Assembly: GCF_900168125.1 (NCBI RefSeq)
Contig: NZ_FUZF01000002.1
Span: 180,464-244,463, forward strand
Direction: 5' to 3'
From: Sphingobacterium nematocida
GTDB lineage: Bacteria; Bacteroidota; Bacteroidia; Sphingobacteriales; Sphingobacteriaceae
DNA: 64,000 nt
Each line of letters opens with the position of its first letter. The stretch's first letter is position 1. The position numbers were made by a program, and so were the translations under genes. The notes beneath the pieces were generated by a model that made no database searches, was not told where the DNA came from, and saw nothing but the letters and a program-made list of their open reading frames with translations. Below, one piece after another: positions 2,572 through 8,216 of this stretch.

Positions 2572-3324
2572 TCAACGCAGACTCTTTATGAATTCAGGGA
2601 TTTTTTTCAAATAGTCTTCCTCCGCCAATAATTTGACAAATGCGGTGCCTACTATTGCGCCATTGGCGTAGGTCGTTGCTTTTCTAAAAGTCTCTTGATT
2701 AGAAATCCCGAAGCCAATGATAAAGGGATTGTCTAGATCCATATCCTGGATGCGTTTGAAGTAACTTTCTGCTTGATCTTTCACCTCGAGGTTTTTACCT
2801 GTTGTTGAGTTGGAAGACAACAGATAGATGAAGCTACTGGACAACTTGTCTATTTTACGGATTCGCTGTTCGGAAGTCTGTGGAGTCACTAAAAAGATGT
2901 TACTGATGCCATTTTCTTCAAATGTACTTTTGTACAATTCCTCATATTCATACATTGGGAGGTCGGGTATGATCGTCCCATTGACGCCTACCTCTCTACA
3001 TGCTTTGCAAAAATTCTCCACTCCGAATTGAATCACAGGATTGACGTAACCCATCAGAAAAACAGGAATGGATACGTGTTTGCGTAGATCCCTTAGTTGT
3101 TCGAAGAGTACCTGTAATGTCATTACATTTTTTAAGGCCTCTTCCGAACTATGTTGTATGGTAGGCCCATCAGCGACAGGATCGGAGTAAGGGAAGCCGA
3201 TCTCTAGAAAATCGACTCCGGCTGCTTCAAGAGCTTTTGCTACCTGTAAGGTACTATCCAATGTCGGATAACCAGCCGTAAAATATATAGATAATAGTCC
3301 GTTTGCGTGTTTGTTGAGTTGCAT
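2572..3324 (-). CDS. trpA: Tryptophan synthase alpha subunit
   Basis: TIM-barrel subunit of 250 residues that cleaves indole-3-glycerol phosphate to indole and glyceraldehyde 3-phosphate, passing indole to TrpB. The signature LEIGFPYSDPVADGP carries the two acid catalytic residues at Glu41 and Asp52, matching Glu49 and Asp60 of E. coli TrpA. The phosphate-binding GFGISN and GAIVGTAFV segments are present. It is the last gene of the minus-strand trp cluster. An 88-base gap with a tandem repeat separates it from trpB, so it may be translated independently within one transcript. Confidence 0.97.
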   Translation of the reverse strand: MQLNKHANGLLSIYFTAGYPTLDSTLQVAKALEAAGVDFLEIGFPYSDPVADGPTIQHSSEEALKNVMTLQVLFEQLRDLRKHVSIPVFLMGYVNPVIQFGVENFCKACREVGVNGTIIPDLPMYEYEELYKSTFEENGISNIFLVTPQTSEQRIRKIDKLSSSFIYLLSSNSTTGKNLEVKDQAESYFKRIQDMDLDNPFIIGFGISNQETFRKATTYANGAIVGTAFVKLLAEEDYLKKIPEFIKSLR

Positions 3325-3412: not shown

Positions 3413-4597
3413 TTATAAATTAAAATACTTCATATAGTTGTCTAAATCTTTATCTCCTCGGCCTGATAGACAGATGACGACTGTTTCATCCCCCTTAAAT
3501 GTCATCTTTTCAAGATAGGCTAGGGCATGCGAGCTTTCAATCGCAGGTATAATTCCTTCTAGTTGGGTTAAACGTAAACCTGCTTGCATAGCCTCATCAT
3601 CGGTGATGGAGACATATTCGCCGCGACCTGACTTAAACAACCAAGCATGTTGAGGACCAATACCCGGATAGTCAAGCCCCGCCGAGATGGAATAAGGTTC
3701 CACCACCTGTCCGTCTGCAGTTTGCATCAGGATAGAGCGACTCCCGTGGAGTACACCTTCTTTACCTAGAGCTGTGGTGGCAGCTGTCTCGCCCGAATTG
3801 ACACCATGACCGGCTGCTTCTACCGCGATAAGACGAACAGCCTCTTCGTCCACAAAATTATAAAACATACCAGCGGCATTAGATCCTCCACCAACGCATG
3901 CCATTACGATATCAGGAGTTTCTTGTCCTGTTTTTTCCAAGAGCTGTTTTCTTGTCTCGGCAGATATAATCGACTGAAAACGGGCCACCATATCAGGGTA
4001 GGGGTGTGGACCTACCACAGAACCGATAATATAATGTGTGTCTACCGGGTTATTGATCCAGTCTCGCAATGCTTCATTCGTCGCATCTTTAAGCGTTTGG
4101 CTGCCAGAGGTAGCAGCCACCACCGTAGCTCCCATCATTTTCATCCGTGCTACATTGGGGGCTTGGCGTTCAATATCTATTGCTCCCATATAAACCACAC
4201 ACTCTAGCCCTTTTAATGCACATACTGTCGCTGTTGCTACCCCATGTTGTCCAGCGCCTGTTTCTGCGATAATTCTTTTTTTGCCCAGTCGTTGTGCCAA
4301 TAAGATCTGACCGATGGTGTTGTTTATTTTGTGCGCTCCCGTGTGATTTAGGTCTTCTCTTTTCAAGAAAATTGTTGCCCCATAACGATCCGACAATCGT
4401 TTTGCGTGATATAGTGGTGAGGGACGGCCTACATAATCTTTTAACAGCTCTTCAAATTCAGCTTTAAATGAAGGGTCGTTCATGATTTGTAAATATTGCT
4501 GCTCCAGTTCCTCTACATTTGGATACAGCATCTCCGGAATATATGCTCCGCCAAATGGTCCGTAATATCCCCTATTGTCTACCTGATATTTGCTCAT
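3413..4597 (-). CDS. trpB: Tryptophan synthase beta subunit
   Basis: PLP enzyme of 394 residues that condenses indole with L-serine to make tryptophan; works as an alpha2-beta2 complex with TrpA. The PLP lysine is Lys90 in the motif HTGAHKINN. The glycine-rich phosphate-binding loop [10 protein letters not shown] and the C-terminal CLSGRGDKD are present. The N-terminus [14 protein letters not shown] is typical of TrpB, which supports ATG 4597. This makes a 26-base overlap with the end of trpF and suggests translational coupling. Confidence 0.98.
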
Positions 4598-5213
4598 GAT
4601 GTATAATTGATAATGCTTGTGTTACTGTTTTTATGTCTTTTAAACCAGGCTCCAATTCAAATTTAGAGTTTAAATCTAACGCATAAAGCCTGTCGTCTTC
4701 TATTGTCATTGCTTGTTCTATATTGTCCAATCCCAGACCTCCACTCAAAAAGTAAGGCTTGGAATAAGGATAATTCCTTAACTGCTGCCAGCTAAAAGTC
4801 TGCCCCGTACCTCCATGCTGGGTACTCTTGGTATCGAATAGAAAGAAATCCACATGGTCAAGGTATTTTTCTAAAACAGACCAGTCGAATGCATCGTCGA
4901 TCCCGAACGCCTTGATAATCTCTAGTCCGGCTTGTTTTAAAGACGCACAGAGTTCAGCTGTCTCGTTACCATGCAGCTGTATACAGGTAATGCCATAGGT
5001 GTCGACCTTATCTATTATCGCAGGGTATGTCTCATTGACAAATACTCCTACTTTTTTTATGTTTTCTGGAATAGCCTTCCGGATACCATCCTGAACAAAT
5101 CGCGGTGATTTTGCGTAAAAGATAAAACCGATATAGTCTATAGGCAGACGGACCAGCTGCTGTATATTCTCCAGATCCCGCATTCCGCAAACTTTTATTT
5201 TAATGTTGTTCAT
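4572..5213 (-). CDS. trpF: Phosphoribosylanthranilate isomerase
   Basis: Monofunctional TIM-barrel enzyme of 213 residues that converts N-(5'-phosphoribosyl)anthranilate to CdRP. Catalytic Cys9 lies in KVCGMRD and the catalytic Asp in FLFDTKS, followed by GGTGQTFSW and the phosphate site FLSGGLG. It is not fused to TrpC, and no TrpC domain lies anywhere in the cluster, so the next step must be encoded elsewhere or be missing. It overlaps trpB by 26 bases and is separated from trpD by a 92-base repeat-bearing gap. Confidence 0.96.
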
Positions 5214-5305: not shown

Positions 5306-6295
5306 TTAACTTCCTACTAACTTCTTCAGACTATTCAATGCCTTTAATCCCAATAGGGAGCTTTCTGCTTCGTAATAGCAATCGGCAAAGCTCTTCTCTG
5401 GATGGAAGGTTTTTATGGCAAAAGCAGCATTGGTTAACACCACATTATTCTGTTCGTTGTTACCCTCTCCGTGGATGATTGTGTTGAAAATACCGGCAGC
5501 TTCTTGAATACTGTCCCCTCCTGTTATAGCTGTGGCTAATACGGGGGGGAATCCCAACTCCTCTACTGTATAGCGACTCTCTCCTTTATTATTTATTAGC
5601 TTAAAGTCACCGGTTAGAGATATCTCGTCGTAGCCATCCAAAGCATGGATAATACTATATTGTTTATCCGCACTTTGGTATAAATAGGTATACAAACGAG
5701 CTAACTCAAGACTAAATACGCCTACAGATTGATATTTTGGATTAGCAGGGTTCGTAAGGGGGCCAAGCATATTGAAAAATGTTTTGACACCAAGAGCTTT
5801 ACGAATAGGCGCTACAGTTTTCATCGCTGGATGGAACAGCGGAGCATGGAGAAAGCAAATGTGTGCATTATCGAGTTGACGCTGGAGCGTATCCTTGTCA
5901 TTGGTGAATTGATAACCCAAGTACTCCATTACGTTTGATGAACCGCACCCTGAAGAGACTCCGACATTACCATGTTTGGCAACGTGATATCCTGCTCCAG
6001 CAACAACAAATGAGGCTAAGGTCGATATGTTGAAGGTGTTTTTACCATCACCACCGGTACCACACATGTCGATGAGATCATAGCCCGTAAAGTCTACCTT
6101 TAGACAGAGGTCGTACATCGCATCGCGAAAACCAGCTAGTTCCTCCACACGAATGCTGCGCATACCATAGGTGGTCATGAATGCTGCAATCTGATGCGTA
6201 TCATACTTGCCAGTAGTAATATGCGTTAAAATATCGTAAGCTTCTTTACGACTGAAGGTTTTATATTCGAATAGGTGTCTTAATATCTCTTTCAT
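5306..6295 (-). CDS. trpD: Anthranilate phosphoribosyltransferase
   Basis: Transfers phosphoribose from PRPP to anthranilate, the second dedicated step of tryptophan synthesis. The 329-residue protein has the helical N-terminal domain and the PRPP-binding signature CGTGGDGKNTFNIST, then KHGNVGVSSGCGSSNVMEYLG. It is the first structural gene after the trp leader; its ATG at 6295 lies about 62 bases past the attenuator hairpin. It is not fused to TrpG, and no anthranilate synthase gene is present upstream. Confidence 0.97.
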   Translation of the reverse strand: MKEILRHLFEYKTFSRKEAYDILTHITTGKYDTHQIAAFMTTYGMRSIRVEELAGFRDAMYDLCLKVDFTGYDLIDMCGTGGDGKNTFNISTLASFVVAGAGYHVAKHGNVGVSSGCGSSNVMEYLGYQFTNDKDTLQRQLDNAHICFLHAPLFHPAMKTVAPIRKALGVKTFFNMLGPLTNPANPKYQSVGVFSLELARLYTYLYQSADKQYSIIHALDGYDEISLTGDFKLINNKGESRYTVEELGFPPVLATAITGGDSIQEAAGIFNTIIHGEGNNEQNNVVLTNAAFAIKTFHPEKSFADCYYEAESSLLGLKALNSLKKLVGS

Positions 6296-6357
6296 CTGTT
6301 AAAGTAAAAAGTTAATAATACAAAGGACTAATTGGCCAAAATTTTATAAATAAAAAA

Positions 6358-6382
6358 GGGGCTCGCCGATATGGCAAGCCCC
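6358..6382 (-). terminator. trp attenuator terminator hairpin (3:4 stem)
   Basis: On the minus strand a 10-bp stem (GGGGCTTGCC pairing with GGCGAGCCCC, one U-G pair) with a 5-nt loop is followed by a T-rich tract. It lies between the Trp-rich leader peptide and trpD, the place of a classical attenuator. Confidence 0.85.
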
Positions 6383-6443
6383 ACTATTTTTTGATTGTAT
6401 CAATTTTAAGCGATAGACATCTGCCACAACATTATCTGTTGTG
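6370..6443 (-). promoter_or_regulatory. Alternative 1:2 and 2:3 RNA pairings of the trp attenuator
   Basis: Segment 1 overlaps the end of the leader peptide and pairs with segment 2 over six bases (CACAAC with GTTGTG, 6425-6430 against 6438-6443). Segment 2 can instead pair with segment 3 over eight positions (minus strand UGUGGCAG with UUGCCAUA, two G-U pairs). Segment 3 forms the left arm of the terminator. The 2:3 and 3:4 stems are therefore mutually exclusive, as in the E. coli trp leader. Pairing was judged by eye. Confidence 0.7.
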
Positions 6444-6479
6444 CCACCACCATGCATTATTGATTACAAAATTGTTCAT
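6432..6479 (-). CDS. trpL: trp operon leader peptide
   Basis: A 15-codon frame reads MNNFVINNAWWWHNR and then TAA. It holds three consecutive TGG codons close to its end. It begins about 11-18 bases downstream of a promoter-like sequence and ends 50 bases before the terminator hairpin that precedes trpD. Three Trp in 15 residues at exactly this place is strong evidence for a sensor peptide: a ribosome stalled for charged tRNA-Trp would cover segment 1 and free segment 2 to block the terminator. Confidence 0.88.
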   Translation of the reverse strand: MNNFVINNAWWWHNR

Positions 6480-6496
6480 TTCTTAATTGTTGCTAA

Positions 6497-6527
6497 CAAA
6501 TATCAAATAAGTTTTTAAAAATGTCAA
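6497..6527 (-). promoter_or_regulatory. Probable trp promoter
   Basis: The minus strand has TTG (within TTGACA) followed after 20 nt by GATATTTG, a 7-of-8 match to the Bacteroidota -7 element TAnnTTTG. The predicted start of transcription lies about 10 bases before the trpL ATG, giving a very short leader. Confidence 0.6.
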
Positions 6528-6542
6528 GTTTTTTTTGATTTT

Positions 6543-7007
6543 TTAATAAAGAACAAAATGTGCTTTGTTATTTCCTTTTGAAACTAAAGTAAAAGAAGCG
6601 ATCTTCCCATTCTCCATATACACGGCCAACATCTGTCGTTTTCTGTAGTGTAGGAAGTACATTTGAGCTGTATCTAGGTCTTCGGGATCAATATCCTTGA
6701 TATCCTTTGTCGGCATTTGATTGTAAGGGATATAGTTAATTTCCTTTATGTCTTTGGATAATAAGTTAATACGAACTTCCTCTAGGGATACCTCAAGGTA
6801 GTCGTAAATTTCATCCGAAGGATTCTCTACGATGAGGTATTTACTTAATACGATATCTACTGCCTTATTCTCATTTGCTAGATCCTTGATAAAAGACTGG
6901 ATAATGGCTATATTTTTTGTGTGATCTTTAGGCTGCGAGTCCTGCGCCCACAAATTCGATGTAAATGAAATTAGTAATAAAGTGATTAATACTCTCATGG
7001 ATGACAT
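6543..7007 (-). CDS. Secreted protein of unknown function
   Basis: I do not recognise a family. The 154-residue product begins with a clear signal peptide (hydrophobic LITLLLISF, cleavage likely after WAQ), so it is probably periplasmic. The mature part is hydrophilic, rich in Asp, Lys and Ile, with no cysteine and no metal motif. An internal Met at position 4 (6998) fits the signal peptide equally well. It lies upstream of and in the same direction as the trp leader, but the trp promoter lies after its stop, so it is probably a separate unit. Confidence 0.7.
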   Translation of the reverse strand: MSSMRVLITLLLISFTSNLWAQDSQPKDHTKNIAIIQSFIKDLANENKAVDIVLSKYLIVENPSDEIYDYLEVSLEEVRINLLSKDIKEINYIPYNQMPTKDIKDIDPEDLDTAQMYFLHYRKRQMLAVYMENGKIASFTLVSKGNNKAHFVLY

Positions 7008-7436: not shown

Positions 7437-8216
7437 CTATATGATTTTGTTTGTCGGTGTTTTTTTTACATTTCTCAAGCTATTGGATTTGTCCCAATGC
7501 GTACTCATTTTGTCGTAAACGAGGGACTGGATTTCATCGGCTTGTGTCGATGTCATATCTTTGGTATCTATTGGTGCGAGTACCTGAATATGTATAATTC
7601 CAGGTTTGGAACCAAACTTATCTCCACTATCCCATAGTGTCTGCCAAGCATCTTGGATAACTACCGGTAAGATCTGTATCTGATTGTCCACAGCTAGTTT
7701 GAACGAACCGGATTTGAACTCATGAAGGCGTGGTGGATATTCATCGTCAATTTTCCCTTCGGGAAATATAACGATTGATCTACCCGCTTTAACTAAATTG
7801 TCGGCTTTTTTGAAAGCTTTGAACGCTGATATTTTGCTTTTTCTATCTACAACGATATCTATACTTTTGAAAAAAATACGAGTGACCGGATTACGCAACA
7901 ATTCAACTTTTCCCATAAAGGAAAACGGTTGGGGGCACATAAATGTTATTGCCGTAATATCTAGTATAGAGGTATGATTGGGGCAAATAACGTAAGGTTT
8001 GGACCAGTCTATACTGGACTCATATTCAATTTTGAAAAATATACCGGAAAATGTGGTGCCGAGTACGGATATTATACGCCTCATGTATGCAATAGATGAA
8101 TAGTGCTTGTCAGGACGTCTGGTTAATACGTATAAAAGTGGAAAAAGTAGTATAAAAAAGAATAGAACACAGAGTAGATACCATATCCTATGAACCTTTT
8201 TTAGAAATAGCAGCAT
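7437..8216 (-). CDS. 1-acyl-sn-glycerol-3-phosphate acyltransferase (PlsC family)
   Basis: Membrane-bound acyltransferase of 259 residues that would add the second acyl chain to lysophosphatidic acid in phospholipid synthesis. An N-terminal hydrophobic helix is followed by the HX4D motif NHTSILD (catalytic His and Asp) and the second block FPEGKID, which replaces the usual FPEGTRS. The replacement of Thr-Arg by Lys-Ile is a small departure that could alter glycerophosphate binding. ATG at 8216. It follows the binding-protein gene after a strong terminator, so it is a separate unit. Confidence 0.88.
   Translation of the reverse strand: MLLFLKKVHRIWYLLCVLFFFILLFPLLYVLTRRPDKHYSSIAYMRRIISVLGTTFSGIFFKIEYESSIDWSKPYVICPNHTSILDITAITFMCPQPFSFMGKVELLRNPVTRIFFKSIDIVVDRKSKISAFKAFKKADNLVKAGRSIVIFPEGKIDDEYPPRLHEFKSGSFKLAVDNQIQILPVVIQDAWQTLWDSGDKFGSKPGIIHIQVLAPIDTKDMTSTQADEIQSLVYDKMSTHWDKSNSLRNVKKTPTNKII

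Follow-up and report, generated by a model that had tools for sequence, protein, structure and literature searches.

A probable tryptophan attenuator upstream of trpD-F-B-A in Sphingobacterium nematocida and a second leader on the other half of a split trp gene set

The trpD-F-B-A genes of this Sphingobacterium are, with a probability of about 93%, controlled by a ribosome-mediated transcription attenuator that would sense charged tRNA-Trp. In the window, the whole stretch of 64,000 nucleotides from Sphingobacterium nematocida that was analysed, the minus strand from 6527 to 6352 contains a Bacteroidota-like promoter sequence, a leader ORF, a 1:2 hairpin, a 2:3 pairing and an intrinsic terminator located 62 bases upstream of trpD (Table 1). 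All these elements, their conservation, the alternative folds and a second leader are evident from the sequence. The original prediction of an attenuator in front of the trpD operon holds for the attenuator itself; what follows it is not a whole trp operon, being one half of a split gene set of which the other half possesses a second leader. As the logic is textbook knowledge and the kind of element has been catalogued for the phylum, the discovery value of a single attenuator is modest. Added here, beyond the single attenuator, are paired Trp leaders on a split trp regulon, and the useful part of the finding is this pair, a split pathway with an own leader at each half in 92 of 112 genomes, which provides a large natural set for how a cis-acting switch persists through operon break-up.

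Elements and folds of the trpD leader

Table 1. Positions in the window of the trpD leader elements and the surrounding genes.
Feature	Position	Strand	Basis or remark
trpA, last trp gene of the unit	2572..3324	minus	ORF and profile match
trpB	3413..4597	minus	ORF and profile match
trpF	4572..5213	minus	ORF and profile match
trpD	5306..6295	minus	TIGR01245, 294.5 bits
Terminator 3:4, 10 pairs, -20.6 kcal/mol	6358..6382	minus	terminator scan, alignment, fold
Strand 3, partner of strand 2 or strand 4	6373..6385	minus	alignment and fold
Antiterminator strand 2 (GGCAG, GTCT, CGCT)	6409..6425	minus	predicted fold
Hairpin 1:2, CACAACA 6443-6437 / TGTTGTG 6431-6425, stop codon in the loop	6425..6443	minus	folding and alignment
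Leader ORF, 15 codons	6432..6479	minus	ATG at 6479, stop TAA 6434-6432
Three Trp codons, codons 10-12	6444..6452	minus	read from the sequence
-7 element GATATTTG, TAnnTTTG variant	6497..6504	minus	conserved pattern; predicted transcription start near 6492
-33 element TTG	6525..6527	minus	conserved pattern before trpD leaders
Codirectional ORF of 154 aa upstream, without NCBIfam match	6543..7007	minus	ends 15 bases before the -33 element

The predicted 15-codon leader ORF with three Trp codons is present and reads MNNFVINNAWWWHNR followed by the stop codon; equally, the 1:2 hairpin and the 3:4 terminator with its T tail were recovered as predicted. The terminator stem pairs GGGGCTTGCC (6382-6373) with GGCGAGCCCC (6367-6358), followed by T6 at 6357-6352, and is one of two sites found in a terminator scan of 6200-6700 in which 0.2 were expected. 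The predicted fold of the leader RNA, at -43.6 kcal/mol, is more stable than those of all 200 shuffles (mean -28.2, sd 3.4; z -4.5). The start of the ORF at 6543-7007, which lies directly upstream of the trp leader, resembles a secretion signal.

With strand 1 hidden, as it would be under a ribosome at the Trp codons, and arm 4 not yet made, the predicted fold is the antiterminator, in which GGCAG..GUCU..CGCU pairs with AGUG GGGC UUGCC at -12.2 kcal/mol. Once the leader RNA is complete, folding yields the terminator both with and without strand 1 hidden, and 3:4 alone has -20.6 kcal/mol. This energy comparison had been suggested as a check; as attenuation depends on the order of events, the greater stability of 3:4 in the full-length RNA is no argument against 2:3. 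The alternative 2:3 pairing, exclusive of 3:4, is formed in 90.7% of the cells of an alignment of trpD leaders.

From these elements we infer a transcription start, ribosome stalling, termination and a response to Trp. Transcription would start near 6492, whereupon a ribosome would load onto the leader ORF. With Trp-tRNA scarce, the ribosome would stall at codons 10-12 and mask strand 1 (6443-6437); strand 2 would then take strand 3 before strand 4 exists, and RNA polymerase would continue into trpD. With ample Trp-tRNA the ribosome would get to the stop codon (6434-6432) and mask strand 2, after which the 3:4 hairpin would form and transcription would end at about 6352. A second attenuator of the same logic is proposed to act before trpE-G-C on another contig and, with an attenuator at each half, both trp halves should respond to one signal. 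The earlier proposal that charged tRNA-Trp is sensed by stalling at the Trp codons gains support from the conservation of these codons and from the compensatory changes in 1:2.

T-box and TRAP elements control trp genes in other bacteria, so that a Trp-sensing leader of another class, in which the RNA binds uncharged tRNA (T-box) or a protein binds NAG repeats (TRAP), might be considered. Such a leader is extremely improbable here, as a scan of the whole window returned no Rfam family at the gathering score, the permissive list holds no T-box in 6250-6560, and one GAG and one TAG counted by eye in 6479-6358 are far from a repeat array; moreover, both classes leave the Trp codons unexplained.

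Conservation of Trp codons, promoter and stems

The upstream regions of trpD were taken from 133 genomes of the family (135 with a match; G032 and G149 are partial matches) and those of trpE from 113 genomes (134 with a match). The trpD upstream region of G015 comprises only 183 bases, its likely leader lying at the end of another contig (L013), and the script-picked trpE ORF of G098, with a TTG start, is probably wrong. The Trp codons, predicted to be conserved in relatives, proved to be so: a short ORF with at least the WW motif precedes trpD in 122 of 133 regions (WWW in 104) and trpE in 99 of 113 (WWW in 52). The reverse-complement controls gave 4 such ORFs for trpD (WWW 0) and 0 for trpE (WWW 0), and dinucleotide shuffles, as the mean of ten rounds, 5.3 for trpD (WWW 0.2) and 5.0 for trpE (WWW 0.2). 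In 103 of 122 trpD and 73 of 99 trpE leaders, codon 10 is the first to encode W; among several possible starts, the one closest to that place was chosen. These counts bear on the reading that the terminator merely ends the transcript of the upstream gene (6543-7007) and that the leader ORF is a chance frame. In its favour, a codirectional gene does end at 6543 and the terminator stem begins 160 bases after it; nevertheless, this reading is very unlikely, as it has to face both the excess of WW ORFs before trpD (122 of 133, about 5 in shuffles) and the fixed place of the first W.

The regions without WW were re-inspected with ATG starts only in the last 330 bases. With the pattern widened post hoc, the 14 trpE misses contain WxW in ten cases, a single W at the usual place in three and none in one, and the 11 trpD misses WxW in five, a single W in one and none in four, with G015 cut by the contig end. 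In genus g3 (G002, G027 and G044) no Trp leader was found before trpD (L169, L170, L175) and a single Trp codon stands at the usual place on the trpE side (L246, L242, L239), a possible loss of attenuation. The count of TGGTGGTGG in the S. nematocida genome (70 occurrences) is uninformative since the reversed pattern is about as common (71).

The predicted promoter-like sequence is retained in an altered form. An E. coli-type match, TTGACA/GATATT, is not above chance in a scan of the leader region (2 found against 2.5 expected), whereas a Bacteroidota-like variant of the -33/-7 elements is conserved. The Bacteroidota -7 element described in the literature is TAnnTTTG, located at -12 to -5 (PMC9723704, PMC7366714, PMC6847099). 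In its canonical form it is not enriched in the 45 bases before the trpD leaders (3 of 122; controls 5 of 244); the variant boxes found there differ in the first base and are CATATTTG (81 of 120), GATATTTG (15 of 120), which is the form of S. nematocida, and AATATTTG (11 of 120). The pattern TTG-(16 to 22)-nAnnTTTG, picked after looking, occurs before 105 of 122 trpD leaders against 5 of 365 control stretches, which likewise argues against a chance frame. Before trpE leaders, TAnnTTTG itself is present within 45 bases in 84 of 99 cases, ending 4-10 bases before the ATG (control windows 3 of 198), and the stricter TTTG-(16 to 22)-TAnnTTTG in 65 of 99 (controls 0 of 297).

With transcription predicted to start near 6492, the 5' UTR of the trpD leader would be about 13 bases long. 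Among leaders with a box, the predicted 5' UTR does not exceed 6 bases in 90 of 97 trpE and is below 10 bases in 100 of 120 trpD leaders. A near-leaderless RNA is, however, not claimed as a distinctive trait of these leaders, because among ORFs of at least 150 aa from 81 sources (the window and L262-L341) 64 have a box in the 45 bases upstream, and in 29 of these 64 the box is likewise no more than 6 bases from the ATG; many of the 29 represent one orthologous gene. In a gene starting with MNFSS (L286-L336), which we take to be RecR, TAnnTTTG ends exactly 4 bases before the ATG in 21 loci, which suggests a conserved leaderless mRNA.

Pairing was assessed in an alignment of 28 trpD leaders from two genera, 27 of them distinct (A1), and in a second one (A2) that comprises 19 trpE leaders from the genus. 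Leaders without a terminator by a simple rule (10 of 122 trpD, 25 of 99 trpE) were omitted from the alignments and from the strand-swap comparison, and all nine g4 trpE leaders are for this reason absent from A2. In A1, 98.7% of the cells of 1:2 and 3:4 are paired and three pairs are changed on both sides, all of them in 1:2 (6 of 500 shuffles reach this); these compensatory changes, foreseen for the stems in related genomes, are equally at odds with a chance frame. The 2:3 pairing of trpD has its five core pairs formed in 97.8% of cells and is kept without covariation: none was detected above shuffles, 463 of 500 of which reached the same share of paired cells or more. Strand 3 hardly varies, and the drawn pair of columns 70/98 is formed in only 11 of 27 leaders. 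In A2, 2:3 and 3:4 each have three pairs with changes in both partners, a number reached by 3 and 5 of 500 shuffles, respectively, and the 90.2% of 2:3 cells paired is not unusual (75 of 500 shuffles).

Strand 2 pairs with its own strand 3 better than the mean of shuffled strands 2 in 105 of 112 trpD and 68 of 74 trpE leaders. Swapping strand 3 between genomes brings little change, the own strand being better in 6265 of 12030 trpD and 2931 of 5198 trpE pairs with different arms; this comparison is weak because strand 3 is nearly constant in trpD leaders. The compensatory changes of 2:3 are clearest in the three trpE leaders with CCCGAT in strand 3 (G053, G122, G142), whose strand 2 contains ATCGGG, coding for Ser-Ile-Gly, while 11 leaders of the genus with CCCGAC carry GTCGGG. 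Of the 19 genus trpE leaders, 14 possess an exact 6-base complement to strand 3; those that lack it are G090, G102, G107, G112 and G117, of which G107 has ATCGGG opposite CCCGAC. Six genus trpE leaders (RWWLL type) show, by eye, a stop before strand 2 together with a matching change in strand 1. Outside the genus, an exact complement was found in only 1 of 51 trpE leaders with the CC[CT]G core (four leaders lack the core), so that strand 2 is there imperfect or located elsewhere. The variant -7 box and the weak 2:3 evidence outside the genus are details which leave the main reading unaffected.

The conserved product could also be the leader peptide, acting in trans like peTrpL of Sinorhizobium, rather than an RNA switch. 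The peptide ends look conserved, with WWWHN in most trpD leaders of the genus, and a trans role of peTrpL is reported for S. meliloti (PMC7298713); still, such a product scarcely deserves credence here, as the residues after WWW are encoded by RNA strand 1 (CACAAC) and the SVG/SIG of genus trpE leaders by strand 2, mostly changing with the terminator. RNA pairing suffices for the conserved residues and the remaining peptide varies.

Split trp genes and the leader before trpE-G-C

The trp unit of the window consists of trpD-F-B-A only, with trpC, trpE and trpG located outside; the genome's sole trpC match lies on contig C37 and adjoins trpG and trpE. Among named relatives, the best matches to trpD come from Sphingobacterium tabacisoli and S. 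faecale, with 88% identity, records very near the own genome possibly being left out. Among 80 named trpD loci, 77 have trpD-F-B-A in this order and three have fewer of these genes, and in none of the 80 do trpE, trpG or trpC occur near trpD (flank of 5 kb where the contig allowed). Equally, whole-genome tables place trpE and trpD far apart or on different contigs in the compared genomes, some of which are limited by the contig ends of drafts. Together, the 80 loci and the tables indicate that the split is general in the part of the family seen.

The trpE leader of S. nematocida is on the minus strand of locus L041, starts at 7717 or 7714 and reads, from the second ATG, MTQSTYQFWWWPGANSVGRHLYWFSE followed by a stop codon. 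Its terminator pairs GCCCGACG with CGTCGGGC and is followed by a T run ending near 7573, and as long as arm 4 is missing, folding predicts the antiterminator (-20.2 kcal/mol). The distance from the start of this leader to trpE is about 330 bases, compared with 167-213 bases in 18 relatives of the genus, and the extra stretch, L041:7385-7572, holds the inverted repeat ATACTCATG/CATGAGTAT. The 112 genomes covered at both places divide into 92 with a WW leader on each side, 10 with one before trpD alone, 6 with one before trpE alone and 4 that have none.

A model built from trpD leaders (R1) detects the trpE leader of the own genome with 35.2 bits (E 2.1e-4), and a model of trpE leaders (R2) detects the trpD leader of the window with 32.1 bits. 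This mutual detection indicates that the two leaders are similar in build, and common descent is likely. We tentatively consider, at slightly less than even odds, that an ancestral Sphingobacteriaceae trp operon was split into trpE-G-C and trpD-F-B-A, that duplication of its leader, or recruitment of a further one, left a separate tRNA-Trp sensor on either half, and that the sensors then diverged in architecture. The trpD leader has its stop codon between strands 1 and 2, and in many trpE leaders strand 2 is inside the ORF and the stops are variable; with such diverged architecture the two halves may respond to Trp shortage at different thresholds. Of 16 outgroup leaders, 11 obtain a higher score with R1 than with R2; as the two models differ in build, this is not decisive on which leader is ancestral. 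An order-level leader search gave matches from the same family only. In the literature covered, with subscription reviews on trp regulation outside its scope, no description of two trp leaders in Bacteroidota was found; absence from print is not claimed.

Relation to catalogued leaders

In a permissive scan with 4227 Rfam families, the best match of the trpD leader by E-value is RF01692 (Bacteroid-trp), aligned over its full length (1-131) at 34.8 bits, which is below the gathering score of 49. The trpD leader of G142 from the same genus is above this cut-off (53.9 bits), and of the 151 genomes of the family, 83 give a match at E 1, with 8 reaching the gathering score. The leader shares with RF01692 the leader start, the Trp codons, the 1:2 region and GGCUUG of strand 3; it differs in its score below the cut-off and in preceding trpD-F-B-A, half of a split set. 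In a search of 246 genomes of the class (E 0.01), 16 further genomes outside the family match RF01692; trpE or trpB-trpE directly follows 15 of the 16 matches, the sixteenth stretch being too short on that side. R1 detects all 16 outgroup leaders tested, located before trpE or trpB-trpE elsewhere in the class, with 24.9 to 60 bits. With the stricter filters of the class search (E 0.01), the own genome was not among the RF01692 matches.

The trpD leader is a divergent relative of RF01692, a kind of element already catalogued for Bacteroidota: Bacteroid-trp was listed in 2010 by Weinberg et al. (PMC2864571) and is discussed for the trp operon of Flavobacterium psychrophilum (PMC6414381), in line with the earlier statement that attenuation is known by sequence beyond Proteobacteria. 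Of the RF01692 matches listed for the family, most are before trpD and four directly before trpE (G032, G038, G039, G058). An RF01692 search of the S. nematocida genome at E 10, in which 150 of the 816 candidates from a first look were scored, did not list the trpE leader. The four matches before trpE suggest that the current Rfam model overlooks the majority of the family's trpE-side leaders.

The trp leader of E. coli combines clustered Trp codons, a stop codon between strands 1 and 2 and mutually exclusive 2:3 and 3:4 pairings, a logic common to the Sphingobacterium trpD leader. The latter nevertheless scores 18.4 bits with the E. coli family RF00513 (Trp_leader; cut-off 41), has a Bacteroidota-like promoter and is one of two leaders, not a single one. 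Sinorhizobium meliloti, with trpL-trpE(G), equally has split trp genes and a ribosome-dependent attenuator, and its RNA begins at the leader ATG, as the Sphingobacterium RNA is predicted to begin close to it; in the account available, however, only trpE(G) of three operons is attenuated, in contrast to leaders at both halves here (PMC7298713). In F. psychrophilum, of the same phylum, the same element has been named and clues of attenuation upstream of amino-acid operons have been reported, but no second leader was found described in the accessible text of these sources (PMC6414381, PMC9723704).

Besides the two trp leaders, R1 and R2 gave weaker matches in the own genome, four of which were inspected. 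Three of them, L387, L392 and L394, were rejected as Trp leaders since they look like ordinary terminators after genes. In the fourth, L386:1501-1660 (G000:C41:107213-107372, minus strand), a Val/Ile-rich leader, MKRQSLNIINSSLNVVVVAVCVVILTKMGGAITI followed by a stop codon, and a terminator-like hairpin with a T run precede a 164-aa ORF without Pfam or NCBIfam match; by its appearance this is likely another attenuator with a branched-chain amino acid leader.
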